Source: a virus. From it: DNA of 30,640 bases. Both the position numbers and the translations under genes were made by a program. Shown here in pieces: positions 9,709 to 26,067 of the stretch; position 1 is the first letter of the stretch; each line of letters starts with the position of its first letter. Below the pieces are notes generated by a model, which saw only the letters and a program-made list of their open reading frames with translations, was not told the DNA's origin and ran no database searches. Location: positions 1 through 30,640 of IMG/VR virus record IMGVR_UViG_3300046689_000136. The stretch is one strand, 5' to 3'.

Positions 9709-11982
9709 TTAGGAGAGGTAGATCCCGTAGAGACTGTGCTTGCGGCTGTCCGTGCCCTGCGTGGCGCTCTGGCCGTCGACCAGGGCAAACGGGGTCGTCG
9801 TATAGCGCCTGTCCGTGCCGGAGCCGTCATAGAAGATCAGCGGCAGGGTGCCTGTCACTACTGAGTCAGCGGAGAGTTGGAAGCCGATCCAGTAGGGAGT
9901 GGAGGCGGTCAACTCGCACAAGAGCGGAAGCGTGACCCACCGCGCAACCTCTGTGCCCTGATGAAGGTCAATGCCTCCTGCGCCAGCCGAACTGTTGGTG
10001 ATCCCCGGTCGCGATCCAGCTGAGGCGTAAGCGAGTAACTTTCCGATGGCGCTGGAGTTGTCGTCCCAGACACCAGCGTTCAGGTAGAGCACCATGTCGG
10101 CCTGGAACTTGAGGTAGACGGAGATACCGATCAGCGTCCCGGTCGCGCCCGGTGTGATCGTCTTCGCGATCACCTGTCTGCTGGTCGCTGTCACCGATGT
10201 GCCGCCGATGGTGGCGTAGCCAATCTGCGTCTTTGCGAGTCCACCGCCGCCGCCGCCCGACGCGTCGATCTTGATGTTCCCCGCCGACGGACTGTTGTCG
10301 GTGATCGTGATGTTGGTGCCGGCGACGAGAGACACGGCTCCCGTGATCGAGTCGATGGAGGAGACACCAGCGGCGGCGATCCCGGCGTCGACGTACGCCT
10401 TGGTGGCCGCATCCTGTGCTGCGCCAGGGTCGACCACGTTCTTGATCTTGTGCGTTGCGGCGTCCAGGTCGATCGTCGAGAAGCCGAGCCCTGGCGTCTG
10501 CGCGGAGTCAGCGATCAGGATCTTGCCATTCGCTCCGACCGCCAGCTTGGCGTCCACGGTGGTGAACGTCCATAGGTCGCCTTTCGCGGAGAGCGGGGAG
10601 GCGATGTTCGTCTCGAAGTTCTTGATGTTCGTGTTGCCGCCGCCGTCGAAGAACCCGGCCCCGGACCTGAAGATGTTGGGTCCGTGGAGGGCGTTGTCGA
10701 GCTTCGTGAAGTTGATGCTCTTCTGGGATGATCCACCGGCCCTGATCGTGTTGCCGGCGACAACGACTTCGCTGACCTTGTTCGTAACCGCTGGCGCGAC
10801 AGCGACCACCGCCGTGGCGCTGCTCGTTCCGCTCATCAGGAACTCGCAGCCGACGATGAGCAGGTTCGTGAAGATACCTGTGTTACTCGGTCCAGCATGC
10901 TCGAGCAGGAAACCCCAGGTGGTGTTCTCGAGGCTGCATCCGATGATCTGCATGTCTCCGGTTGTCGCACCGTCTTGAAGCTCCATGTCGATGCAAGTGG
11001 TGCAGGTGACTGCGCCGCGCGTGTTGCACTTCGCACCGACGATCTTGGTGCCCCCGCCTGAAAGCCATTGGATGCAGGCAGTCGAGCCGCTGTTCACCGG
11101 ACCGGCCACGAACTCGCCGGACACCCACGCGTCACCGCTGTCGACGTTGTCGACGTTCTGGATGCGGAGTCCGCAGAAGACGAAGTCGTAGACGAAAACG
11201 GACATCTCCATGAACCATTCGCCGCCAGCCTGATGGTCGATGCAGTAGTAGAAGCCGCGCACCGAGAGATTCGGGCCGTAGTGGGTGCTGTTGCCGCCAC
11301 CAGTGACCGTCCTGACTCCTGCACCCGCGGTCGGTGCTGTGACGTGGGTGTTCTGGATGGCGACATCCTGTATCTGGACTCCGTGAACGCTGATCGTGAC
11401 CCCCACGGCTGTCGCATGATCGACGGTCAGGAGGGTGCCGAAGTTCGCCCAGAGCGCATCCGCGCCACCGCGTCCGCGCAGGGTGAGCCGTTTCGCAATC
11501 GCGATCGTCGAGGTGGTCGTCCCGTCGATGATCGCGTACGTCCCCATCTGTAGCTGGACGACACCGCCGGTCGGACAGGCTGTGATCGCGGCAGCGATGG
11601 CAGCGTTGTCGGTCGCGGCCACACCGGTCGGGGCAGCGACAAGAACGACGCTTGGATCCTCCAGGTCGGTGATGACCTTCTTGGTGATCGTGAGCGCGAT
11701 CTGGTCACCGACGACGACGGTGCGAGCCGAGCTCCCCTCCTGGGCGCGAGTGATGGTGAGCACATCTCCTGAACGTGCGGTGCAGCGAACGATCTCGGCG
11801 TTCGTCGTCGAGGGGGCCGTGGCTGTCGGCCAAATGGTGAGGTTGAAAGCCCCGTCCGTGCTGGGCGCGGGGAAGAGAGCGCCGTCCCCTGTTGCGAGTG
11901 TCAGCGACGTGCCGCTGGTCGCCGGCGAAGGAGCGGTCGCGACTGTCGAGTAGGCGAAGTTCTTGTGGGCGTCGTAAGTCAT
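9709..11982 (-). CDS. Tailspike/tail fibre with pectate-lyase-like beta helix, 757 aa
   Basis: Residues 1-110 are a beta-rich virion-attachment domain (TSLTLATGDGALFP, RSGDVLTITRAQEG). A pectate-lyase-3-type start follows (DNAAIAAAITACPTGGVVQL with TYAIIDG, about 125-155). Next come repeated short strands of a right-handed beta helix to about residue 440 (QIQDVAIQNTHV, MQIIGCSLENT, LLIVGCEFLM). A tail-fibre motif LDAATHKIKNVVDP with KAYVDAGIAAAG comes next, then a six-glycine linker near residue 585, then a C-terminal jelly-roll-like domain. It probably binds and perhaps cleaves a surface polysaccharide of the host. I cannot point to catalytic acids. Confidence 0.78.
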   Translation of the reverse strand: MTYDAHKNFAYSTVATAPSPATSGTSLTLATGDGALFPAPSTDGAFNLTIWPTATAPSTTNAEIVRCTARSGDVLTITRAQEGSSARTVVVGDQIALTITKKVITDLEDPSVVLVAAPTGVAATDNAAIAAAITACPTGGVVQLQMGTYAIIDGTTTSTIAIAKRLTLRGRGGADALWANFGTLLTVDHATAVGVTISVHGVQIQDVAIQNTHVTAPTAGAGVRTVTGGGNSTHYGPNLSVRGFYYCIDHQAGGEWFMEMSVFVYDFVFCGLRIQNVDNVDSGDAWVSGEFVAGPVNSGSTACIQWLSGGGTKIVGAKCNTRGAVTCTTCIDMELQDGATTGDMQIIGCSLENTTWGFLLEHAGPSNTGIFTNLLIVGCEFLMSGTSSATAVVAVAPAVTNKVSEVVVAGNTIRAGGSSQKSINFTKLDNALHGPNIFRSGAGFFDGGGNTNIKNFETNIASPLSAKGDLWTFTTVDAKLAVGANGKILIADSAQTPGLGFSTIDLDAATHKIKNVVDPGAAQDAATKAYVDAGIAAAGVSSIDSITGAVSLVAGTNITITDNSPSAGNIKIDASGGGGGGLAKTQIGYATIGGTSVTATSRQVIAKTITPGATGTLIGISVYLKFQADMVLYLNAGVWDDNSSAIGKLLAYASAGSRPGITNSSAGAGGIDLHQGTEVARWVTLPLLCELTASTPYWIGFQLSADSVVTGTLPLIFYDGSGTDRRYTTTPFALVDGQSATQGTDSRKHSLYGIYLS

Positions 11983-17301: not shown

Positions 17302-17747
17302 TAGAACGTCCTCGTCACGGTTCCGATGACATGGTCAACCGTGTTCAAGACCTGAACACGGTTCCCCTCGAGTGCGGGGTCGTACGACTTGCCGAGCATC
17401 AGGGTCGCGAAGTTCGGGCGACGGAGCGCCGAGTCATTCCTGGCCCGTGCGCCCTTCTCGGTCGGGACCATGTACACCTCTTTCGTGTTCTGGCCCGTCT
17501 TCTGCACCGACCATGCGGGGAGCACCGGCCCGATGAACGACTTCTTCTTCGCCGCACCCTTCCTGGCCCGTGCCATGCCGCTGATCCGGGTGAGGGCGAG
17601 CCTGTCCGCCTCCCGTTTGATCGGCTGGACGGCGATCGTCAGTCCGATCCGCATCGCCTTGAGGAGTGCGGGGCTGGTCGCCTTCAGGTCACGCTCGAGT
17701 TCCGTGAACCCGGCCAGGATCACAGGGTTCTCAATGCGTCCGGCCAT
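17301..17747 (-). CDS. HK97-gp10-like tail/neck protein, 148 aa
   Basis: ATG at 17745-17747 follows directly after the TAG of the frameshifted chaperone. The sequence LAGFTELERDLKATSPALLKAM then PIKREADRLALTRIS and a beta-rich C-terminus match the HK97 gp10-like pattern of tail-completion proteins. A basic middle segment (RARKGAAKKKSF) is typical. In most phages this family is encoded in the neck region before the major tail protein. Here it lies between the chaperone and the tape measure, so its job may differ from the standard one. Confidence 0.65.
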   Translation of the reverse strand: MAGRIENPVILAGFTELERDLKATSPALLKAMRIGLTIAVQPIKREADRLALTRISGMARARKGAAKKKSFIGPVLPAWSVQKTGQNTKEVYMVPTEKGARARNDSALRRPNFATLMLGKSYDPALEGNRVQVLNTVDHVIGTVTRTF

Positions 17748-18331
17748 CTAGTCCTCCTCGCCGGACGAGAACTTGGCGTCGAACATGTCGACCGCTGCCA
17801 TCAGGTCACCGGGTGTCAACTCGCCAATGCCTCCGGTGTTTCCTGGACCGACGGCCGGGAGGATGTGTCCGATTCGGAAGTCCCAGTAGTAGCGGGGTTC
17901 TCGTCCGAGCTCTCCGAACTCTTCCGCGAAACGCTCCCAGAAGGATCGCTCGTAGAGGGCTTCCTTGTCAGCGATGATTCGTCGGGCTTCGGCGTCGACT
18001 CCAGGTCCAAAGGGACTTCACCGTCGCCCACGCCCTCGAGTGACTTCTGTGCCTCCTCGAGATCCACTTGGCCGACGATCTTCGCGATCTCGTCGAAGCT
18101 CATCTCAGGATGAACGTGCCGGTACGAGATGTGCATGATCGCGGAGATCCCATCCGGGTCGACGTACAAGGCATCGGCCGACTGCGCGGCGAGATCACGG
18201 AAGTTCCAGCCCGTGTACCTCTTGACGATCCGGTGGTCGTCCATGGTGAGGTTCTCCGGCTCCTGGTAGACCTCACCGTCGATCGTGTAGCCGTACTCCT
18301 GCTCAGTCTCCGTTGTGGTTTCAGCGTCCAC
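17748..18331 (-). CDS. Tail assembly chaperone G-T fusion made by -1 ribosomal frameshift, 194 aa
   Basis: The first 108 codons are those of the G protein, up to TTG in CCCTTTG. Slippage back one base puts ribosomes in a frame that reads GPGVDAEARRIIADKEALYE, then RSFWERFAEEFGELGREPRYY and HILPAVGPGNTGGIGELTPG, ending at TAG 17748-17750. This 86-residue T extension has a clear protein-like pattern, whereas the zero-frame continuation is a serine/threonine-rich low-complexity tail. G and G-T chaperones hold the tape measure during tail assembly, as established for lambda and many siphoviruses. Confidence 0.85.
17816..18331 (-). CDS. Tail assembly chaperone G (zero-frame product)
   Basis: I chose GTG at 18329-18331, six bases after GAAAGGG; a GTG ten codons further upstream lacks such a site. 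The product starts VDAETTTETEQEYGYTIDGE and has a compact helical domain (HRIVKRYTGWNFRDLAAQSA, MSFDEIAKIVGQVDLEEAQK). After the frameshift site it continues as an S/T/E/P-rich tail (TRKPSTSDPSGSVSRKSSES) to TGA. The gene lies between the major tail protein and tape measure genes, the classical place of lambda gpG. Confidence 0.83.
   Translation of the reverse strand: MDAETTTETEQEYGYTIDGEVYQEPENLTMDDHRIVKRYTGWNFRDLAAQSADALYVDPDGISAIMHISYRHVHPEMSFDEIAKIVGQVDLEEAQKSLEGVGDGEVPLDLESTPKPDESSLTRKPSTSDPSGSVSRKSSESSDENPATTGTSESDTSSRPSVQETPEALAS
18008..18014 (-). promoter_or_regulatory. Programmed -1 frameshift slippery site CCCTTTG
   Basis: On the minus strand the heptamer is read C-CCT-TTG in the G frame. 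It fits the X-XXY-YYZ rule exactly, with CCT and TTG able to re-pair as CCC and TTT. It lies 108 codons into the G protein, and the -1 frame after it is open for 86 codons with protein-like sequence. This is a recoding site of the kind conserved in tail assembly chaperone genes. Confidence 0.85.
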
Positions 18332-18409
18332 GCGTAGCCCTTTCTGTTGGGAATCCCCCACCCCACGCCGGCAGGGGACTCAGGTGTGATGCGAATGCTC
18401 CGGCACCTC

Positions 18410-18817
18410 TTACGAGGTCGTGATGCCGTTGGTGTCCGCGATCCTGAACGTCGCGGTCGTCTTGTACGGCTGGCCGCGAGCGGCGGAAGGATCGTACGTC
18501 CGCAGCTGGCAGTTGCCGTGGTACGTCGTCCGGGTGTTGTCGATCAACCCGTCCGGTTGCCAGGACACCTGGAAGATCGTCCTGTTCTGATGGAGCGGGA
18601 ACAGGAGCGCTTCCGTCTCCTTGGTGATGAACACGTCTCCGGTGAAGCCCTCCGCGCGGGTACCGGACAATGTCTCGTCCGCACCTGACACGCTGAAGCC
18701 GGACACGTCCACGTCCTGGTCGTCCGACGTGAAGCCGAACGTGTCGAACGCGTTGCTCATGTCGACGCCGTCCACGGTGATGCGATCGTGGAGAGCGACT
18801 TTCTTCGTGTAAGTCAC
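18410..18817 (-). CDS. Major tail (tube) protein, 135 aa
   Basis: ATG at 18815-18817 overlaps the preceding gene's stop. The protein is all-beta: KVALHDRITVDGVDMSNAFD, GFTSDDQDVDVSGFSVSG, GFTGDVFITKETEALLFP and FQVSWQPDGLIDNTRTTYHG. Size (135 aa), beta content and position just before the chaperone and tape-measure genes are those of siphovirus tail tube subunits. It should polymerise in hexameric rings around the tape measure. It has no added Ig-like domain. As the most abundant tail protein and the near neighbour of the glycosyltransferase cassette, it is a good candidate glycan acceptor. Confidence 0.78.
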   Translation of the reverse strand: MTYTKKVALHDRITVDGVDMSNAFDTFGFTSDDQDVDVSGFSVSGADETLSGTRAEGFTGDVFITKETEALLFPLHQNRTIFQVSWQPDGLIDNTRTTYHGNCQLRTYDPSAARGQPYKTTATFRIADTNGITTS

Positions 18818-19050
18818 TTGATTCCTCCTCTCTCGGTGACTGTTGCATCAGCCGACGACGATGTCGGCCAATCCTCGGGGAGTCCGTAATGGCCCTCCGA
18901 AAGCTCGGGGTCGACCTGGGCGATCACGATCACGTTGCCGCGCGCGATGCCGCGCTCGAGCGCAGGGTCGAGCTTCGTCACGAACTGGTCACCCGGCTTG
19001 TGACCCCGGTACTCGCGCTGGCCTTGCACCTCCAGCAGCAGGTACTTCAC
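18814..19050 (-). CDS. Small tail-region protein, 78 aa
   Basis: GTG at 19048-19050 shares GTGA with the stop of the last glycosyltransferase gene. The protein starts VKYLLLEVQGQREYRGHKPG and contains DQFVTKLDPALERGIARGNVIVIAQ, then an acidic tail. The KPGDQF ... ALERGIARGNV order occurs in short phage proteins lying between neck and tail tube genes. Function unknown. The coupling to the glycosyltransferase upstream and major tail protein downstream makes it part of the same translation chain. Confidence 0.65.
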   Translation of the reverse strand: MKYLLLEVQGQREYRGHKPGDQFVTKLDPALERGIARGNVIVIAQVDPELSEGHYGLPEDWPTSSSADATVTERGGIK

Positions 19051-19808
19051 GCCGCCACCAAGGCCAGGGCGGCGTAATAGGAGCGCATCTCGTCGAGTGC
19101 CTCCTCCGGGTAGAAGTCCGCGAGCTCCACGAACGGGTCGGCCGGTGAGGATGCCCCGTGGATCGCGGTCACCTCTTTGTACGAGTTCAACTGGCTTCCT
19201 GGCGTCTTCCAGTCGACAATCTGTCGTGGGTGAAGGTTCCAATGCTTCACCTCCAGGTCGGGATGGGCGATGCGGATGTTGGACAGGATCGAGGTGTCGC
19301 AGCCGCGCATCCGGTCTTCGTCGGCTGGCCGGTAGCCGAGCACCTCGAGCAGCTGCCTCGGGATGATCCTGATGCCCGACCCTCCGTCGTACCTGATCGT
19401 GGGCGAGCAGATTTCCCGGCCATCCTCACGGACGAACGACATCTGCTGGAAGCCGAAGATCGTGTTGGTCGGCGGCAGCGGTTCAGTGAAGAGACGATGG
19501 TCGAGCCAGTCGTCGGATCCGCAGGGGACGACGTAGTCGACCGGGTTCGAGTTGTAGCGCGGGTCGGTCGCCAACTGGATGCCGTCGTTGAACTTGGCGG
19601 ACGTGTAGTCGTTCTCGCGGATCACCCAGCCGAACCTGAGATCGTGCGGCCAGAGATCCTCCAGCGTGTCCGCGTCCGACACGACCACGGCACTCGCCAT
19701 GACCCCGTCCTCAATCAGCGCATCGCACGTCCGGCGTAGCTGGCGCAGGCAGATCCGGGCGAGCTCCAGACGACCGTGGACAGGGACGCAGAACCAGAGC
19801 GTCTTCAC
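19047..19808 (-). CDS. GT-A-fold glycosyltransferase, 253 aa
   Basis: I chose GTG at 19806-19808, which overlaps the stop of the preceding gene (GTGA). The sequence opens with LWFCVPVHGRLELARICLRQ, the N-terminal strand and helix of family 2-like transferases. SAVVVSDADTLEDL is at 39-52, and NDYTSAKFNDGIQLA at 66-80 resembles the family's 'k.naGi..A' helix. VVPCGSDDWLD (93-103) supplies a DxD-like metal/nucleotide-sugar site. The C-terminal half contains IIPRQLLEVLGYRPADED. It would transfer a sugar to an unknown acceptor. It is the last gene of the carbohydrate cassette; the acceptor may be a virion protein. Confidence 0.78.
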   Translation of the reverse strand: MKTLWFCVPVHGRLELARICLRQLRRTCDALIEDGVMASAVVVSDADTLEDLWPHDLRFGWVIRENDYTSAKFNDGIQLATDPRYNSNPVDYVVPCGSDDWLDHRLFTEPLPPTNTIFGFQQMSFVREDGREICSPTIRYDGGSGIRIIPRQLLEVLGYRPADEDRMRGCDTSILSNIRIAHPDLEVKHWNLHPRQIVDWKTPGSQLNSYKEVTAIHGASSPADPFVELADFYPEEALDEMRSYYAALALVAA

Positions 19809-20611
19809 GCGGCCACCGGGGACATGTGGAAGGCATTCGCCCACCAGTCAGGATGGATCAGCATGTGCAGTTGCTTCGGATCGTCTGGGGATTGTGGTGG
19901 CTTTTCCGTCGTGACGTAGGCGCTGAACAGAGCCGAGATGTGCAGGAAGTCTTCCGGGTTCCACTTGCCGCCGGAGTCGCTGAAGCGGAAGTTGTACGGC
20001 AGAGCGCAGAAGAGCGCCTCGTACTCGAGGCCGAAGTCCGCGAGCGGTCGCGGCTGCAAAAAGAGGCTGACCGCACCACGGTTGATCTCGCGCGCGCCCC
20101 CCTCGACGATCGTGTCCCCCACTTGTCCGCGCTTGCACTCGAGGAACTGCTCGTCGTTGGCGAACCATTGCTCGCCCTCTCTCGCCTCGCTGCTGCACAG
20201 CCTGTCGCCGTGTCCGGCGGCACCGATCACGTCGTGCCCGAGGCCGCGCAGCCGCGCAAGCGCCTCCTCGAGGATCTCGTCCGGGTTGCGGCCGGTGCGG
20301 AGCGCATCCGCGAGAGCGTTGACGTGGATGCCGATCTCGTGGCCGTATAGAGCGATCACCTCCAGGTAGGACTCGAACCCTGGCTGATCCCAATAGCCCG
20401 ACCCGTGGAGGATGTAGTAGCTGGAGCGATAGCCGCGCTCAGCCTCCCACGCAGCCATATTCGTAGCGGTGAGAAGCGACATTTGGCTGTCGCAGTCGTG
20501 GCGCATCCCGATCGCGTTCGGAGCACGATCGCCAGCGACGACCTCACGCAGGGGGATGACACGGTCGGCCTTCGACATGAACAGCGTGTCGAGATCCTCC
20601 AGGTCAGCCAT
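19805..20611 (-). CDS. NodB-like polysaccharide deacetylase-type protein, 268 aa
   Basis: I chose ATG at 20609-20611; upstream in-frame codons overlap the previous gene's end. RHDCDSQ (residues 37-43) is like the metal-binding D-D motif of NodB-fold deacetylases. YGHEIGIHVNAL (89-100) gives the H-x4-H pair, and GAAGHGDRLC (130-139) resembles a later active-site loop. The C-terminus LIHPDWW is a typical last histidine strand. Enzymes of this fold remove acetyl or related groups from sugars using a metal. Adjacent glycosyltransferases suggest that the substrate is a nascent glycan. Confidence 0.75.
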   Translation of the reverse strand: MADLEDLDTLFMSKADRVIPLREVVAGDRAPNAIGMRHDCDSQMSLLTATNMAAWEAERGYRSSYYILHGSGYWDQPGFESYLEVIALYGHEIGIHVNALADALRTGRNPDEILEEALARLRGLGHDVIGAAGHGDRLCSSEAREGEQWFANDEQFLECKRGQVGDTIVEGGAREINRGAVSLFLQPRPLADFGLEYEALFCALPYNFRFSDSGGKWNPEDFLHISALFSAYVTTEKPPQSPDDPKQLHMLIHPDWWANAFHMSPVAA

Positions 20612-20624
20612 GTTGAACGGTGCC

Positions 20625-21221
20625 CTAGACCGCATCCCGCACCTCACGTCCACGCCGGATCGCCTCAGTCTTCAAAGCGACGGCGTTCTCCATATGCGCC
20701 ATCCGGTTGTCGGCATTGCCCCAGTCGAGCTCCTCGAAGCGAAGAGGCAACTGCACGGTCGGAGTGATGACGCCGATGATCGTGTCCGACCACATGCGGA
20801 AGAAGTCGTCGTGCGGGTAGTGCTCCAGGTAGCGGAGGTGCGCGTCCAGCCAGAGCTCGCGATTGCTGATCGAACCAGAGCCGGGGAAGACGAGGTCGTC
20901 GTAGCCGCCTTCGATCCCCTGCCGACGCGCTCCGTCCGACCAGTCCTTCCACATGCAGCCGACAAGATGCGTGGGCGAGTATGCGGCCAGGATCTGCATC
21001 TGGCTCTCGGGCGTGTGGACGATGTCGTCGTCCTGGCTGTAGATGATCTCGGTCGGGGCTCGCAACGCGCCGAGCAGCCGCCCGTACGTCATCTGGTCCT
21101 TCTCCTCGCGGCTGTTGTCCCAGACGATCACCTCAGGGAAGACGAGCGTGTCGATGATCGGATCCAGCGGCACATCGCCGCGCGTCACGATCACCGCGGT
21201 CACGTCACTTGGCGACAGCAA
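20625..21221 (-). CDS. GT-A-fold glycosyltransferase, 198 aa
   Basis: TTG at 21219-21221 follows GGGAGG by six bases; GTG at 21203 is an alternative. The short protein begins VTAVIVTRGDVPLDPIIDTL, then EVIVWDNSREE at 30-40. RAPTEIIYSQDDDIVH (54-69) has a clear DDD nucleotide-sugar site, and LVFPGSGSISNRELW suits the acceptor loop. MWSDTIIGVITPTVQ follows. It has the size and motifs of compact bacterial and phage GT-A transferases. It overlaps the preceding transferase gene by 17 bases, which implies coupled translation and a shared pathway. Confidence 0.78.
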   Translation of the reverse strand: MLSPSDVTAVIVTRGDVPLDPIIDTLVFPEVIVWDNSREEKDQMTYGRLLGALRAPTEIIYSQDDDIVHTPESQMQILAAYSPTHLVGCMWKDWSDGARRQGIEGGYDDLVFPGSGSISNRELWLDAHLRYLEHYPHDDFFRMWSDTIIGVITPTVQLPLRFEELDWGNADNRMAHMENAVALKTEAIRRGREVRDAV

Positions 21222-21861
21222 GCCTGTCCTCCCAGCGGTGCATCTCGTAGATGTGCGAGTTCCGCTCGACGAGCGTTAGCTCTCTCGCTCCACGCGTCAT
21301 ACCGTGCCGCATGTACTTGAATCTCGGCCTGTCGCCGGAGGCGAACACAGCGCCGATCCTGGCGAGCCGTCGCCACAGCGCCCAGTCCTGCAACGCGCAG
21401 TCGGGGAACCCGCCGGCGTCGAGCAGAATGTCTGTGCGGACGAACGATCCGGCCACGAACGGGTTGTGGTCTAGCTCGAGGATCTCAGCGTTCTCCATCA
21501 CGGGCGGGATGTACACCTCTCCGTCGCTGCGCTCGTAGCCGCACTGCACGACATCGGCGTCCACATGCTCGATCCCCTCGAGCGCGTCAGGGAAGGCGAT
21601 GTCGTCGATGTCGTGGATCCAGACCCATTCGCTCCGCACCTGATCGAGCGCGCTGTTCAGGTGGAACGCCTGCGGGTACGAGTCGCGGTTCTGGCGACGG
21701 CGGAAGACCTCGAGCACGCTGGTGATGTGTCGGTAGCGGTCGGTGCCGATGACCACTTCGCGCGGTGCCGGGTTGAGCATCCCGACCGCGTGCAGCCAGT
21801 CGGACAGGTAGTCGTCGTGGGTGGCTCCGTACAGGCAGCTGATGATCGTCACGTCGACCAT
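21205..21861 (-). CDS. Family 2-like glycosyltransferase, 218 aa
   Basis: ATG at 21859-21861, 13 bases inside the preceding gene. It opens with VDVTIISCLYGATHDDYLSD and PREVVIGTDRY, and the segment SEWVWIHDIDDIAFPDALEG (78-97) has the DxD site (DIDD, 84-87) with following helix. NPFVAGSFVRTDILLDAGGF (133-152) and CALQDWALWRRL (155-166) match the usual 'g....r...l...GGF.e....ED..l..rl' acceptor region, with Q-D in place of E-D. It is a typical GT2-type transferase of about normal catalytic-domain length, with no membrane segment. Confidence 0.82.
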   Translation of the reverse strand: MVDVTIISCLYGATHDDYLSDWLHAVGMLNPAPREVVIGTDRYRHITSVLEVFRRRQNRDSYPQAFHLNSALDQVRSEWVWIHDIDDIAFPDALEGIEHVDADVVQCGYERSDGEVYIPPVMENAEILELDHNPFVAGSFVRTDILLDAGGFPDCALQDWALWRRLARIGAVFASGDRPRFKYMRHGMTRGARELTLVERNSHIYEMHRWEDRLAVAK

Positions 21862-22490
21862 GCCACGTCTCCTTCCCTGAACCCGACGCGCTCCTTGTAG
21901 AAGCGCAGCCCCTCCTGACCGGAGTCGTGACGGTTGTAGTAGAGGATCCCTTCGTTGCCCGACTGGTCCTCGACCATGCCGGCGAACAGGAGGTACATGA
22001 TCTCGTCGGTGAGGTAGTCGCCGTGGCCGAGGATCATCGACACCATGGCGAGCTCGTTGCTGCGGTGCAGCGTCAGGTAGGCGACGAGGTTGAGCCGCGG
22101 CGAGAGCACACCGTAGGTGCGCGTGTTGTGCAGGTCGCAGGGGAACTGCGCGAGCCGGCCGCGTTCGCAGAACTTCGTGTAGCCAGCCGCCATCGGTCGT
22201 CCCTGGCGCTCGTCGAGCGACGTGTTGATCGCGAAGATGTCGTCCGAGTACTGGCTGTAGTCGACCTCGTTGAAGATGTAGCCGCGCCGCTCGCAGCGGT
22301 CAGAGCGCTTCCGCGCGGTGCGGTGCTCGGAACGCCACTCCTCGAGCGAGGCGGGGCAGACCATGATCGATACGCCTTGCTGATAGCGAATCGGCGCGAG
22401 CGTCCCTGCCAGATGCTGCGCGTGCGCGATGCAGCCCTGCTCATCGCAGTCACCGACGAGGTCGACGGGGAGCGCCAGCGTCTCAATCAC
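21849..22490 (-). CDS. GNAT-like acyltransferase candidate, 213 aa
   Basis: GTG at 22488-22490 overlaps the methyltransferase stop by 8 bases. The segment EEWRSEHRTARKRSDRCERR and YSDDIFAINTSLDERQGRPM (81-100) resembles a conserved region of uncharacterised GNAT-related proteins. LVAYLTLHRSNELAMVSMIL is a central strand-loop, and EGLRFYKERVGFREGD (193-208) is like the 'l..FY...GF' end of GNAT acetyltransferases. It probably adds an acyl group to a sugar or protein. A FemAB-type aminoacyl transferase is an alternative. The assignment is moderate. Confidence 0.6.
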   Translation of the reverse strand: MIETLALPVDLVGDCDEQGCIAHAQHLAGTLAPIRYQQGVSIMVCPASLEEWRSEHRTARKRSDRCERRGYIFNEVDYSQYSDDIFAINTSLDERQGRPMAAGYTKFCERGRLAQFPCDLHNTRTYGVLSPRLNLVAYLTLHRSNELAMVSMILGHGDYLTDEIMYLLFAGMVEDQSGNEGILYYNRHDSGQEGLRFYKERVGFREGDVAWST

Positions 22491-22968
22491 GGCGCATCAC
22501 CAGCCAGCCCACTCGTTCGTTGCGCGGGAAATACGAAGCCGTCCAGGGGTCATCCTCGGGCAACTCCACGTCGCTCTTCACGGTCAGCGTCAGCATCTTG
22601 CGCGCGACCGTCAGCCAGAGGTAGAGCATCTCCCAGGAGCGCTCCTGCATGTGACCCATGAACGGGTCGACCGACACCACATCCCACTCGCGGCCCTCCA
22701 TGGCGGCGCGGCTGGCGAAGTCGTAGGCGTCGTCGACATGGAACGCGTGACCCTCCGGCATCAGCAACGCCATCTCGAACAGCTTGTCCGCGTCCGTGTC
22801 GATGAAGTCGATGGTCAGGCCGGCGCGGATCAGATGGATTCCATCATTCCAGCCCCAGAACCCTGCCGCGAACAGCGACAGAGCCGTGCCTTCCGTCGGG
22901 AGCAGGAACGACGGATACGGCTGCGCCTCGCGATTCAACGCGTCGAACGTCTCCGGCTTGGCGATCAA
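22483..22968 (-). CDS. Class I SAM-dependent methyltransferase, 161 aa
   Basis: The TTG at 22966-22968 overlaps the stop of the preceding gene (TTGA). No other in-frame start lies near, and extension would only shadow that gene. TALSLFAAGFWGWNDGIHLI (28-47) is a motif I-like glycine loop, and LTIDFIDTDADKL (51-63) supplies the acidic end of strand two. WDVVSVDPFMGH (95-106) is the motif IV strand. The protein is a minimal Rossmann-fold methyltransferase. The carbohydrate cassette makes O- or N-methylation of a sugar the simplest role. DNA or protein methylation cannot be excluded. Confidence 0.75.
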   Translation of the reverse strand: MIAKPETFDALNREAQPYPSFLLPTEGTALSLFAAGFWGWNDGIHLIRAGLTIDFIDTDADKLFEMALLMPEGHAFHVDDAYDFASRAAMEGREWDVVSVDPFMGHMQERSWEMLYLWLTVARKMLTLTVKSDVELPEDDPWTASYFPRNERVGWLVMRRD

Positions 22969-23423
22969 CTCTGCGCCTTGATGACGACCACCTGGAGCAG
23001 CGAGCCGAGGAAGAAGCCGTCCCCGTTCACGTCCGTGAAGTCGGTGTAGCCCGACCAGGGGAACCCGTCCTGCCATTTCAGATCCTGCGCCCAGCCGCCG
23101 AGCGAATGGTCTGAGTCGAGCGCCTTGACGATCGACATGTCATCCTCGTCGTCCATCAGGGCGAGCAGGATGTCCTCGCCCGAGTACAGGTCGGCGGTGG
23201 AGACGCGCACCCGGACCGTGATCGGGATCCCGCTGTACAGATCCCCGTACGCGGCAAGGCCAGCCTCGAGGCCGGTCGGGTTCGCGATCAGCATGTCGAT
23301 CGCCGGAGTCTCCGCGATCGAGAATGCGCGAGGCTCGAAGTGCAGCGTCACCGGGGACACCGGCTGGAGCTCGTTCTCAAGTTGTGCGGCCATGGCATCC
23401 ATGACCTGGGCGATCGTCGCCAT
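22965..23423 (-). CDS. Head-tail joining / tail-completion protein, 152 aa
   Basis: ATG at 23421-23423, five bases after the connector stop. The N-terminus is a helix TIAQVMDAMAAQLENELQ. It continues as ETPAIDMLIANPTGLEAGLA, GIPITVRVRVSTADLYSGED and a C-terminal domain ending FTDVNGDGFFLGSLLQVVV. The start MxxxAxQLxxxL, middle strands and location between connector and tail genes are those of tail-completion proteins of siphoviruses. The stop overlaps the methyltransferase start, so this gene is coupled to the carbohydrate cassette. Confidence 0.68.
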   Translation of the reverse strand: MATIAQVMDAMAAQLENELQPVSPVTLHFEPRAFSIAETPAIDMLIANPTGLEAGLAAYGDLYSGIPITVRVRVSTADLYSGEDILLALMDDEDDMSIVKALDSDHSLGGWAQDLKWQDGFPWSGYTDFTDVNGDGFFLGSLLQVVVIKAQS

Positions 23424-23427
23424 CGAG

Positions 23428-24321
23428 CTAGGCGATTCCCCACTGCTGCTTGATCGGCGAGAGCCGCTGCGCGTACCGCTCCCATGAGTAACGACCGAAA
23501 GTCGACGGGACAGCCTCATCGACGACACCCAGGATCCCAGGCGCGCTCTCGCGGTGCCGCCACAGGTCAGCGGCACGATCGATGCAAACGCCCTTCAGAA
23601 GCTCGAGTTCCTGGGTCGTGTACGCAGGACCGTCAGCCGAACGGTCGACCTCCGCGTTGATCTCGATCGTGGCCGTGTCCAAGTCGCCTTGCGCGGCCAG
23701 TGTCTGGTCTGCCGTCGGAGTCTTGATCTTGAGGATGCGGAACAGGTCTGCGGTTGTCGCATAGGACGTGACGCCGACGGGTGTGCCGCTGGTGAACAAC
23801 TCGCTCGCCTGCTGGGTGAACGCTCCTTGGTTCAGCCACAGCGACGCCTCGAACACGGCGTCCAGCGTGCGCGTCGCCACGATCTCCAGCAACTGTTCGG
23901 CTCCGGTAGCCGTGAACGACGTCCCAGCATCCTCGAAGAAGGTGCCTCCGCTGAAGTAGTCGAGGAACAGCGTGTACTGGACCCCGACGGTCAGCGTGAC
24001 GGTGAACGTAACCGTGCGGGAACCGTCGTACGACCAAGTCCCCGCGTGACCACCGCTGCCTGACGACGGCGTTCCGTAGACGAAGTTCTCGCTGGACAGG
24101 AACTCGCCGTTGTTGTTGTCTCTTACGTCGCCGCCGAAGATGACGCCGGCGGTCAGACCGGCCAGGGGCGTGATCGTGCGAAGCATCGCTGACCCGTTCC
24201 CCGTGAACTGGTCGATGTGCTGCGACGACCCGTCCGTGACCGTCAGTTGGTACACGTGCCCGTTGATCGTGTCGACGGTTGCCGAGATCGATGTCGAACC
24301 GGCGTAACTCCAGACGACCAT
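23428..24321 (-). CDS. Head-tail connector with added N-terminal beta domain, 297 aa
   Basis: The C-terminal 107 residues match the gp6-like head-tail connector pattern: TADLFRILKIKTPTADQTLA, TATIEINAEVDRS, YTTQELELLKGVCIDRAADL and FGRYSWERYAQRLSPIKQQW. The first 145 residues are different. They are all-beta and rich in G, S and T (NGHVYQLTVTDG, GTWSYDGSRTVTFTVTLTVG and VQYTLFLDYF), like an Ig- or carbohydrate-binding-type sandwich. A helical linker with TLDAVFEASLWLNQGAFTQQ joins them. The connector fills the portal-tail junction; the extra domain probably projects outward and could be a surface decoration. Confidence 0.7.
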   Translation of the reverse strand: MVVWSYAGSTSISATVDTINGHVYQLTVTDGSSQHIDQFTGNGSAMLRTITPLAGLTAGVIFGGDVRDNNNGEFLSSENFVYGTPSSGSGGHAGTWSYDGSRTVTFTVTLTVGVQYTLFLDYFSGGTFFEDAGTSFTATGAEQLLEIVATRTLDAVFEASLWLNQGAFTQQASELFTSGTPVGVTSYATTADLFRILKIKTPTADQTLAAQGDLDTATIEINAEVDRSADGPAYTTQELELLKGVCIDRAADLWRHRESAPGILGVVDEAVPSTFGRYSWERYAQRLSPIKQQWGIA

Positions 24322-24471
24322 CTAGGTCTTCTTCTTCGCCTTCGGGTTCGGCTTCTGCTCGACCTTCTGTGGAGCGCCGAGTCCGGCGAGATTGTCGGTC
24401 GTGGTCGACTTGGTCGTCACGCCAGTCGGACTGTAGATCCCTGCCTCTCGGCGCTCCCTGTACGGAGTCAT
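24322..24471 (-). CDS. Lysine-rich small protein, 49 aa
   Basis: ATG at 24469-24471; the TAG is directly adjacent to the next ATG, and the start lies two bases after the previous stop. The product is MTPYRERREAGIYSPTGVTT followed by a polar stretch and a strongly basic end KPNPKAKKKT. It has little hydrophobic content and is likely disordered. It belongs to the short genes after the capsid gene, perhaps a head-associated or DNA-contacting factor. Family unknown. Confidence 0.55.
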   Translation of the reverse strand: MTPYRERREAGIYSPTGVTTKSTTTDNLAGLGAPQKVEQKPNPKAKKKT

Positions 24472-24473
24472 TC

Positions 24474-24746
24474 CTAGTTGTCCGGGGTCGGCATGTTCGC
24501 GAACGACTGACCGCCTGCCGCGATCCCGTACGCCTCGATGTTGTGCTCGCCGCCGCCCGTGGGGACGTCTCCCGGCATCTCCACGTCGGGCGAGGCAACG
24601 TCACCGGGCGAGGGAGCCGCGTTCGTGCCGTAGTTGCCGCCGTCGGTGGGCATCTCCTGCCCGGACGGGTTGTACGGCTCCGGGCCTGCCGGCATCCTGC
24701 CCACGTTCTCCTGCGTCCCCGACTCCATTCCTGACATCTCGCTCAT
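24474..24746 (-). CDS. Pro/Gly-rich head-region protein, 90 aa
   Basis: ATG at 24744-24746 after AAAGGAG. The product is of low complexity, rich in P, G, M, S and N (MPAGPEPYNPSGQEMPTDGG, APSPGDVASPDVEMPGDV) with no predicted helix or strand, and acidic overall. It follows the capsid gene and its hairpin. Disordered proteins here may act as head-surface decoration or assembly aids; the sequence does not decide. Serine, threonine and asparagine content would suit glycosylation, but no motif proves it. Confidence 0.6.
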   Translation of the reverse strand: MSEMSGMESGTQENVGRMPAGPEPYNPSGQEMPTDGGNYGTNAAPSPGDVASPDVEMPGDVPTGGGEHNIEAYGIAAGGQSFANMPTPDN

Positions 24747-24816: not shown

Positions 24817-26067
24817 TTACGAGGCGGTCGTGATCAGTGAGAACGCGCCGTTGTCGACCACATCGGCCTCGAAGGCTCCGATGATGCCGACCTCGACGCC
24901 GCCGATCGCAGGCTCGACGACGCGGAGCTCGACCGGAGCGCCAGCCGTCTCTGCGACGAGCAGTCCAGCGGAGTCCCCGACGATGATCGTGCCAGCGTCG
25001 AGTCCACGCGAGATCACGATGTTCAGCGGCCCGATGTTCTGGCCGTTGACGCTCATGAACTGCGTGAACGCGTTCGACGTCAGCCCCAGGAAGTAGCCGA
25101 AGCGGTCCGGGGCGAGGTAGATCGTGTCAGCGACGCGACCGCTGTTCGTGAACACAGCGCCGTAACCGGCACCGATGCCCGTCATCATCTGGGCGAAGGT
25201 GTCGGTCGCACCGACGGTCGTGCCGATCTTGTTCGTGAACGCCGAGTCGGTCAGCGCCTTGGCGGCGTCCTGCTCCGTCTTCAACGCGTAGTCAGCCGCG
25301 GCCAGGTCGAACCACAGGGACAACGCGTCCGGCGTCGTCCAGTTGATCGCCTGCCACGACAGGTCGCCGCCGCCCAAGTATGTCGACGCGGTCTGCGTGA
25401 CCAAGTCGACGACCATGCCCTGGTTGCCTGCCTCCGTCTTCTGGGTGGCCTGCACCGAGACGATCGGGCGGGTGGTGACCTTCGGGTAGGTGAGCGTGCC
25501 CCGCATCAGCGAGGTCCGCATGGCCGAGTTGACCAGATTCCGGTTCTTGTTGATGATCTGGAAAATCTGGTCGAGGTACTGCGGCGTCTGGAGTCCGGCG
25601 ACGTTGCTCGAGAGCGTGTTCGCCGGAACCCTCTGCAACAGCTGCAACCGCTCGCGAGCCTTGAGAACCTGCTCGTTGCCGCCGGCTAGCTGGGCGATCT
25701 TGTCGCACTGCGTCGTGCCGCGCGTGAGGACCATGTCCCGTGCGTAGCTCGCGAAGTCGCGGTACATGATGCCGTCGCCGTCGATCTCGACGCCCTCCGT
25801 CTCACCCGCCATCAGCCGCCGCAGCTTGCTCGCGTTGGCGATGGCGTTGCGGGTGGACTCGATGTCGTCGGAGAGGGTCGTCGTCTCCGAGTCGATCGTG
25901 GTGACGCGCTCGCGGTACATCAGGACGTGCTCCTGCTCCGTCTCGGAGAGCGACTTGTCGTCACGGGAGTTGATCGACGCGTTCAGCGCCTCCCACTTCT
26001 CCGTGATGATCTGGCGCTCGTCGAGGAGCGTCGCCAGGCGCGTTTCCGCCTGAGTCGTCTCGCTCAT
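24817..26067 (-). CDS. HK97-fold major capsid protein, 416 aa
   Basis: ATG at 26065-26067 after GGAGGTGTAAAACG. The first 90 residues are helical and charged (TRLATLLDERQIITEKWEAL, ETTTLSDDIESTRNAIANAS), a delta-domain-like scaffold removed by the protease in HK97-type phages. Then come the HK97 body features: ANTLSSNVAGLQTPQYLDQI, RGTLTYPKVTTRPIVSVQ for the E-loop/N-arm region, LSLWFDLAAADYALKTEQDA for the spine helix, RVADTIYLAPDRFGYFLGL and a C-terminal P-domain (GLLVAETAGAPVELRVVEPA, GAFEADVVDNGAF). All expected domains are present and the length is normal. It is preceded by protease and portal genes as usual. Confidence 0.93.
   Translation of the reverse strand: MSETTQAETRLATLLDERQIITEKWEALNASINSRDDKSLSETEQEHVLMYRERVTTIDSETTTLSDDIESTRNAIANASKLRRLMAGETEGVEIDGDGIMYRDFASYARDMVLTRGTTQCDKIAQLAGGNEQVLKARERLQLLQRVPANTLSSNVAGLQTPQYLDQIFQIINKNRNLVNSAMRTSLMRGTLTYPKVTTRPIVSVQATQKTEAGNQGMVVDLVTQTASTYLGGGDLSWQAINWTTPDALSLWFDLAAADYALKTEQDAAKALTDSAFTNKIGTTVGATDTFAQMMTGIGAGYGAVFTNSGRVADTIYLAPDRFGYFLGLTSNAFTQFMSVNGQNIGPLNIVISRGLDAGTIIVGDSAGLLVAETAGAPVELRVVEPAIGGVEVGIIGAFEADVVDNGAFSLITTAS

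Follow-up and report, generated by a model that had tools for sequence, protein, structure and literature searches.

A probable virion-glycosylation cassette with a predicted de-N-acetylase and a FemAB-like transferase in the structural operon of an uncultivated phage clade

Our analysis suggests that six overlapping genes in the structural operon of an uncultivated actinobacterial phage from soil probably encode a late-expressed virion-glycosylation pathway. The window analysed here is the complete IMG/VR record IMGVR_UViG_3300046689_000136 (30,640 bases, 64% G+C), and the cassette occupies positions 19047-22968 of its minus strand, between the genes for the tail terminator and the tail tube. 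Glycosylation of phage virions is known from a few cultured mycobacteriophages, and its chemistry beyond the transferases is poorly described. Virion glycosylation as such is therefore not new; what is new here is a core that combines a predicted de-N-acetylase with a FemAB-like GNAT-fold transferase. An earlier note on this DNA, made from its letters only, had proposed that the six genes add a glycan to an abundant virion protein. This is still their most likely role, given the reported precedents (PMC12363180, PMC11600133) and the presence of the core directly behind the capsid gene in unrelated head lineages.

Results

All six open reading frames (ORFs) were confirmed at the place given in the earlier note, and they lie on the minus strand. 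The structural module on this strand comprises TerL, portal, protease, major capsid protein (MCP), adaptor and tail terminator (22965-23423; phrog_17840 tail terminator, 6e-5), and is followed by the cassette. Its genes encode a putative methyltransferase (MT; 22483-22968, 161 residues, TTG start), a GNAT-fold protein (GNAT; 21849-22490, 213 residues, GTG start), two putative glycosyltransferases (GTa, 21205-21861, 218 residues, ATG start; GTb, 20625-21221, 198 residues, TTG start), a NodB-like deacetylase (NodB; 19805-20635, 276 residues, ATG start) and a third putative glycosyltransferase (GTc; 19047-19808, 253 residues, GTG start). Downstream lie s18 (18814-19050, minus strand, 78 residues), a small protein conserved in relatives, then the tube-like gene (18410-18817, minus strand, 135 residues), which we call tail tube from its position and length, and after it a chaperone-like gene and one that probably encodes the tape measure.

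Every junction of the cassette is an overlap of 4-17 bases. MT overlaps the stop of the tail terminator by 4 bases; counted from this junction towards the tube, the overlaps are 4, 8, 13, 17, 11, 4, 4 and 4 bases long. The single 13-base gap described earlier came from a NodB start at 20611. We place this start at 20635, because the N-terminus is conserved in relatives as M/V-R-D/S-x-APF, and the junction then becomes an overlap (the NodB row of our alignments and model begins one codon earlier, at 20638, with one extra leading residue). The cassette has a G+C content of 0.64-0.65, and both its G+C and its G+C at third codon positions resemble the values for the structural genes, which gives no indication of recent import.

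This arrangement is stable in the clade. The cassette directly follows the tail terminator in 30 of the 33 loci that are anchored on the MCP gene and reach past the terminator, although some of these loci are overlapping pieces of one phage or of nearly identical ones. The coupling of the cassette to structural genes is supported, whereas the idea of an unusual insertion gives way to that of a regular feature of the clade. The three exceptions are L146 (on the same contig as L113), L038 and L172. In the last two, another gene follows the terminator and the sequence ends about 1.3 kb further on. In L113/L146, GNAT, MT, GTb and NodB have moved as a block to a place between terminase and portal, within the structural operon, and GTc-s18 lies between adaptor and terminator. 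Dozens of relatives share the set, and the identity of its proteins is roughly on a par with that of the capsid, so it is not a chance assembly.

Not all six genes are equally constant. We collected 38 contigs anchored on NodB, after removal of exact duplicates, and counted partners nearby on the same strand: GNAT was found in 36, GTc in 35, MT in 32, GTb in 26 and GTa in 12. GNAT, NodB and GTc were present in all loci spanning terminator to s18, a result that ascertainment favours. The core is GTc, NodB and GNAT, usually with MT, and GTa and GTb are optional, which refines the six-gene unit of the earlier note. The same core lies directly behind the MCP gene in phages with unrelated capsids, of the phrog_267/283 type (L010, L094, L115, L116) and of the phrog_10 type (L119). 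There is also a variable slot inside the cassette, which in L077 holds a GT-B enzyme, in L080 another methyltransferase besides MT, and in L126 a hexapeptide acyltransferase and a GT4 enzyme.

The smallest set was found in a 38.9-kb contig of an Actinomycetota metagenome-assembled genome (MAG; JACDCN010000001.1, our loci L131, L186 and L187), which carries only GNAT-MT-NodB-GTc at the same place. Subject to the usual reservations about the binning of MAGs, this contig points to an actinobacterial host. It also carries an integrase-like and a DNA methyltransferase-like ORF, both recognized by eye, and the former suggests that this phage may be temperate.

The enzyme classes were assigned by building profiles from the collected relatives and comparing them, with hhalign, to bacterial Pfam member sets drawn from the genomes of one actinobacterial order, a sample in which the FemAB family PF02388 had too few members to form a set. 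Direct single-sequence Pfam and PHROG scans supported only GTa among the six products (PF13641 Glyco_tranf_2_3, E=2.4e-5; PHROG glycosyltransferase, 7e-9). In the profile comparisons, each product matched its expected family and, outside the GNAT superfamily, no unrelated pairing reached 5%. These clean controls support all six enzyme classes named earlier. The structural check once proposed for every product took the form of profile comparison for the six and of AlphaFold2 models searched with Foldseek for NodB and GNAT. Scans of NCBIfam gave weak chance matches only, and the six profiles found weak matches only among the sequences of solved structures.

GTa and GTc matched PF00535 at 96% and 82%, respectively. 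Both combine family similarity with a DxD-type motif, which supports their assignment as GT2-type glycosyltransferases, GTc in the core and GTa as an optional member. In GTc the motif GSDDW is invariant in relatives, and its relative in L056 passes the curated PF00535 cut-off (1.4e-6). GTb is the weakest of the three, a GT-A-like glycosyltransferase by its 59% match to PF00535 (E 9e-5, other sets at most 0.4%) and by a QDDD motif that is invariant in the 16 aligned relatives. No mutual homology between GTa, GTb and GTc was recognizable by profile. MT matched PF13649 at 95% (E 3e-8, other sets below 2%), and most of its weak profile matches in the PDB were to enzymes of the class I methyltransferase fold, which supports a class I S-adenosylmethionine (SAM)-dependent methyltransferase.

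Profile and model together support NodB as a divergent member of the NodB/CE4-like polysaccharide deacetylases. It matched PF01522 at 78% over a short segment, with other sets below 1%. Its AlphaFold2 model (predicted local distance difference test, pLDDT, 89.7) retrieved CE4 chitin de-N-acetylases at the top of the Foldseek ranking (E 0.006-0.02, TM-score 0.4). The motifs HDxD, GHExGxH, HG and HP are conserved, and invariant in 12-16 relatives, with a spacing of Asp and His unlike the classic TFDD/HxxxH. A pattern scan for NodB in bacterial genomes returned 135 matches and no relative, and tblastn of NodB or GTc against phage records found no match.

The GNAT protein is probably a FemAB-like (PF13480-type) GNAT-fold transferase, acting as an N-acyl- or N-aminoacyl-transferase. 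It matched PF13480 at 91%, against 21% for Acetyltransf_1 and 8% for LPG_synthase_C. Its AlphaFold2 model (pLDDT 92.6) had as top Foldseek matches Sbb17/Sba18 with streptothrisamine, MprF, L-PGS, A-PGS and FemX. FemX-type enzymes have two GNAT domains (PMC12945691), whereas the secondary structure of our model reads as a single complete GNAT core with an additional N-terminal part. By this architecture we do not class it as a member of FemABX. The sequence itself had no significant match among solved structures, and a search of phage records gave chance matches only. Three short local matches to its profile in bacterial genomes (L298-L300) were treated as false positives; two of them were read as an unrelated RxGRPMSNQY motif, DUF58-like by eye.

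Which donor this enzyme would use is a roughly even question. It may be an ordinary acetyl- or acyl-coenzyme A (CoA)-dependent N-acyltransferase that exchanges an acyl group or protects a sugar amine without tRNA, a reading to which we give slightly less than an even chance. The name of the matched family, 'Acetyltransferase (GNAT) domain', fits it, as does the length of a single complete domain, and of 53 distinct relatives 21 have a CoA-type loop (Q/RxxGxG/A) where it would be expected. The other 32, among them the protein of the window, have lost this loop, and the 25 best solved-structure matches of the model are nearly all aminoacyl-tRNA-dependent transferases, which cover more of the chain than single GNATs do. 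Moreover, K199 is invariant in the 53 distinct relatives, within a conserved Phe/Tyr-Lys dyad that we liken, by motif and not by superposition, to FemX Lys305 and DhpH-C Phe328-Lys329 (PMC12945691). The outcome would change one step of the virion-glycosylation pathway and not the pathway itself. It does make the 'acetyl-tailored' glycan of the earlier note doubtful: NodB would remove acetyl groups, and the nearest folds of GNAT are aminoacyl-tRNA-dependent.

The C-termini of two virion proteins give a lead on the acceptor. In mycobacteriophages, capsid and tail-tube proteins are reported to bear glycans at this end (PMC12619734). The last residue of the tail tube is Ser or Thr in 16/16 divergent groups (17/17 when the groups are drawn a little differently), against a baseline of 23%, and it is not forced there by overlap with the next gene. 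The MCPs of the clade (24817-26067 on the minus strand in the window; phrog_2263, 1e-35) nearly all end in -(T/S)(T/A)(A/G)S, with an ITTAS-like motif. Three points weaken this lead: the sequences compared are related to each other, the terminators end in Ser too, where gene overlap may force that residue, and the MCP of the second head lineage has a different C-terminus. As a lead, the terminal Ser/Thr of the tube and the C-terminal motif of the MCP are possible acceptor sites.

Discussion

Our results suggest a compact and testable pathway, for which we propose substrates, an order of steps, an acceptor and a benefit. GTc in all cases, with GTa and GTb in this subgroup, would take sugars from the host nucleotide-sugar pool, attach them to side-chain hydroxyls of an abundant protein of the virion (the capsid or the tail-tube protein being the likeliest), and then extend the glycan. 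In the core, GTc would first transfer an N-acetylhexosamine (HexNAc), from which NodB would take off the N-acetyl group to leave a free amine. GNAT would re-cap this amine with an amino acid from an aminoacyl-tRNA or with an acyl group from CoA, MT would add a methyl group, and the optional GTa and GTb would extend the glycan. The product might shield the particle or alter its adsorption. No obvious nucleotide-sugar or DNA-hypermodification genes were seen by eye among the translations of the window, so the sugar donors would be host-derived. The coupling of NodB and GNAT (nearby on the same strand in 36/38 loci) supports this scheme, and so does the lasting association of the cassette with virion genes, which survives rearrangement and extends over different head lineages. 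In its most specific form, GTc, NodB and GNAT, with or without MT, would replace the N-acetyl group of a virion sugar with an amino acid from aminoacyl-tRNA and then methylate it, possibly at the C-terminal Ser/Thr of tube or capsid; we consider this full combination rather unlikely.

Several observations weigh against a virion-glycosylation pathway. The virion glycan, its chemistry and its acceptor are our inference from the genes. The clade consists of uncultivated phages: we found no cultured member, and blastn of 17500-24500 for close cultured relatives gave no match. The MCP C-termini of the second head lineage differ from those described above, so a single acceptor motif may not be shared by all. 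Finally, we found no syntenic relative free of the cassette that would speak to its dispensability, L038 and L172 ending too soon.

The cassette might instead alter the wall or surface glycans of the host during infection; superinfection, or adsorption to debris, could be blocked in this way. Cell walls are known to be modified by each of the chemistries concerned, de-N-acetylation, aminoacylation and glycosylation, and the phage of the MAG contig, possibly temperate, would fit such a role. Yet host-envelope modifiers usually lie outside the structural operon, whereas each of the three head lineages has this cassette within it, its start and stop codons overlapping, and its products have no long hydrophobic stretches by eye. 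We therefore regard envelope modification as improbable. We see even less reason to expect that the glycan is confined to tail fibre or tail tip proteins for receptor binding. In this clade the cassette belongs to the tail half of the operon, and a lectin-like Laminin_G_3 protein is encoded within the cassette region of L114, but other lineages carry the cassette behind the capsid gene, and the known precedents concern capsid and tail tube (PMC12363180, PMC11600133).

Least probable is the hypermodification of phage DNA bases, by glycosylation and tailoring, against restriction. Some phage glycosyltransferases do modify DNA (Pyle et al. 2024, cited by PMC12619734). However, the NodB/CE4 family acts on HexNAc, the cassette is linked to structural and not to replication genes, and no obvious base-hydroxylating, thymidylate-synthase-like or kinase genes were seen by eye in the window or in the MAG contig. 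We rejected this reading for lack of such partner genes in those two sequences. A defence system was also considered and rejected, PADLOC giving no match for seven proteins. Modification of an abundant virion protein remains our preferred explanation.

The enzymes of Nod-factor tailoring, NodC, NodB, NodA and NodS, are a GT2 transferase, a de-N-acetylase, a GNAT-fold N-acyltransferase and a SAM methyltransferase. The cassette would use the same kinds of steps, as an analogy without a demonstrated relation at the sequence level, and with another neighbourhood and product. Its logic also resembles that of BD-12 biosynthesis, where an amino sugar receives a tRNA-dependent glycyl group. The chemistry has a direct precedent there: according to PMC12945691, citing Maruyama et al. 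2016, Orf11 of that pathway is Gly-tRNA-dependent and acts on an amino-sugar antibiotic intermediate. Among solved structures, Sbb17, Sba18 and Orf11 (of the BD-12 and streptothricin pathways) and FemABX come nearest in fold to the GNAT model and have, by motif, a comparable Phe/Tyr-Lys pair, and the BD-12 likeness extends to chemistry on an amino sugar (PMC12945691). They differ from GNAT in having two full domains against one in its 213 residues, with about 14% identity.

Among phages, PMC12363180 and PMC11600133 report glycosylated virions in Che8, Corndog and Myrna. The closest cultured relative by capsid is Corndogvirus (cluster O), with an MCP that is a distant homologue, 26.5% identical to that of the window. 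Its head operon also contains, beside the capsid gene, overlapping genes for an O-methyltransferase and annotated glycosyltransferases (Firecracker gp33-gp36), and these enzymes are reported to act on the capsid and on the tail tube (PMC11600133, PMC12363180). Yet these genes lie between portal and protease rather than between terminator and tube, that stretch of the operon lacks NodB and GNAT, and none of the four Corndog-type proteins matched the six cassette profiles. In cluster F (Che8/Tweety), where virion glycosylation is reported for Che8 (PMC12363180), Tweety gp104 is homologous to GTa by profile, but it is encoded near the right end of the genome, far from the structural genes. Tweety gp103 and gp108, the latter a second glycosyltransferase, have no counterpart here, and these cluster F genes include neither NodB nor GNAT. 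The glycosyltransferase shared by clusters F and O (Tweety gp108 / Firecracker gp36 type) had no significant match to the cassette profiles.

The constancy of a putative de-N-acetylase and amine-capping core across a large clade of uncultivated actinobacterial phages would, if our proposal is true, predict virions bearing amino-sugar glycans with unusual caps. Under the aminoacyl alternative, these phages would provide a case of virus-encoded, tRNA-dependent aminoacylation of protein-bound glycans. GNAT-MT-NodB-GTc is a minimal four-gene set that could be rebuilt in the laboratory.

Other features of the window

The tail tube had no significant match in a direct PHROG scan, and a longer ORF form containing s18 had none in Pfam or PHROG. 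The s18 protein has a conserved R-x-YRxxxPGxxF motif, and in this clade its gene always adjoins GTc. The chaperone-like protein (17816-18361) ends in a long low-complexity tail rich in Ser and Thr. Finally, the N-terminal domain (about 110 residues) of a fibre-like protein encoded at 9709-11982 of the window recurs beside the head genes in L022, L027, L028 and L031, where it sits between g24474 and the adaptor and resembles an inserted extra fibre or head-decoration protein.

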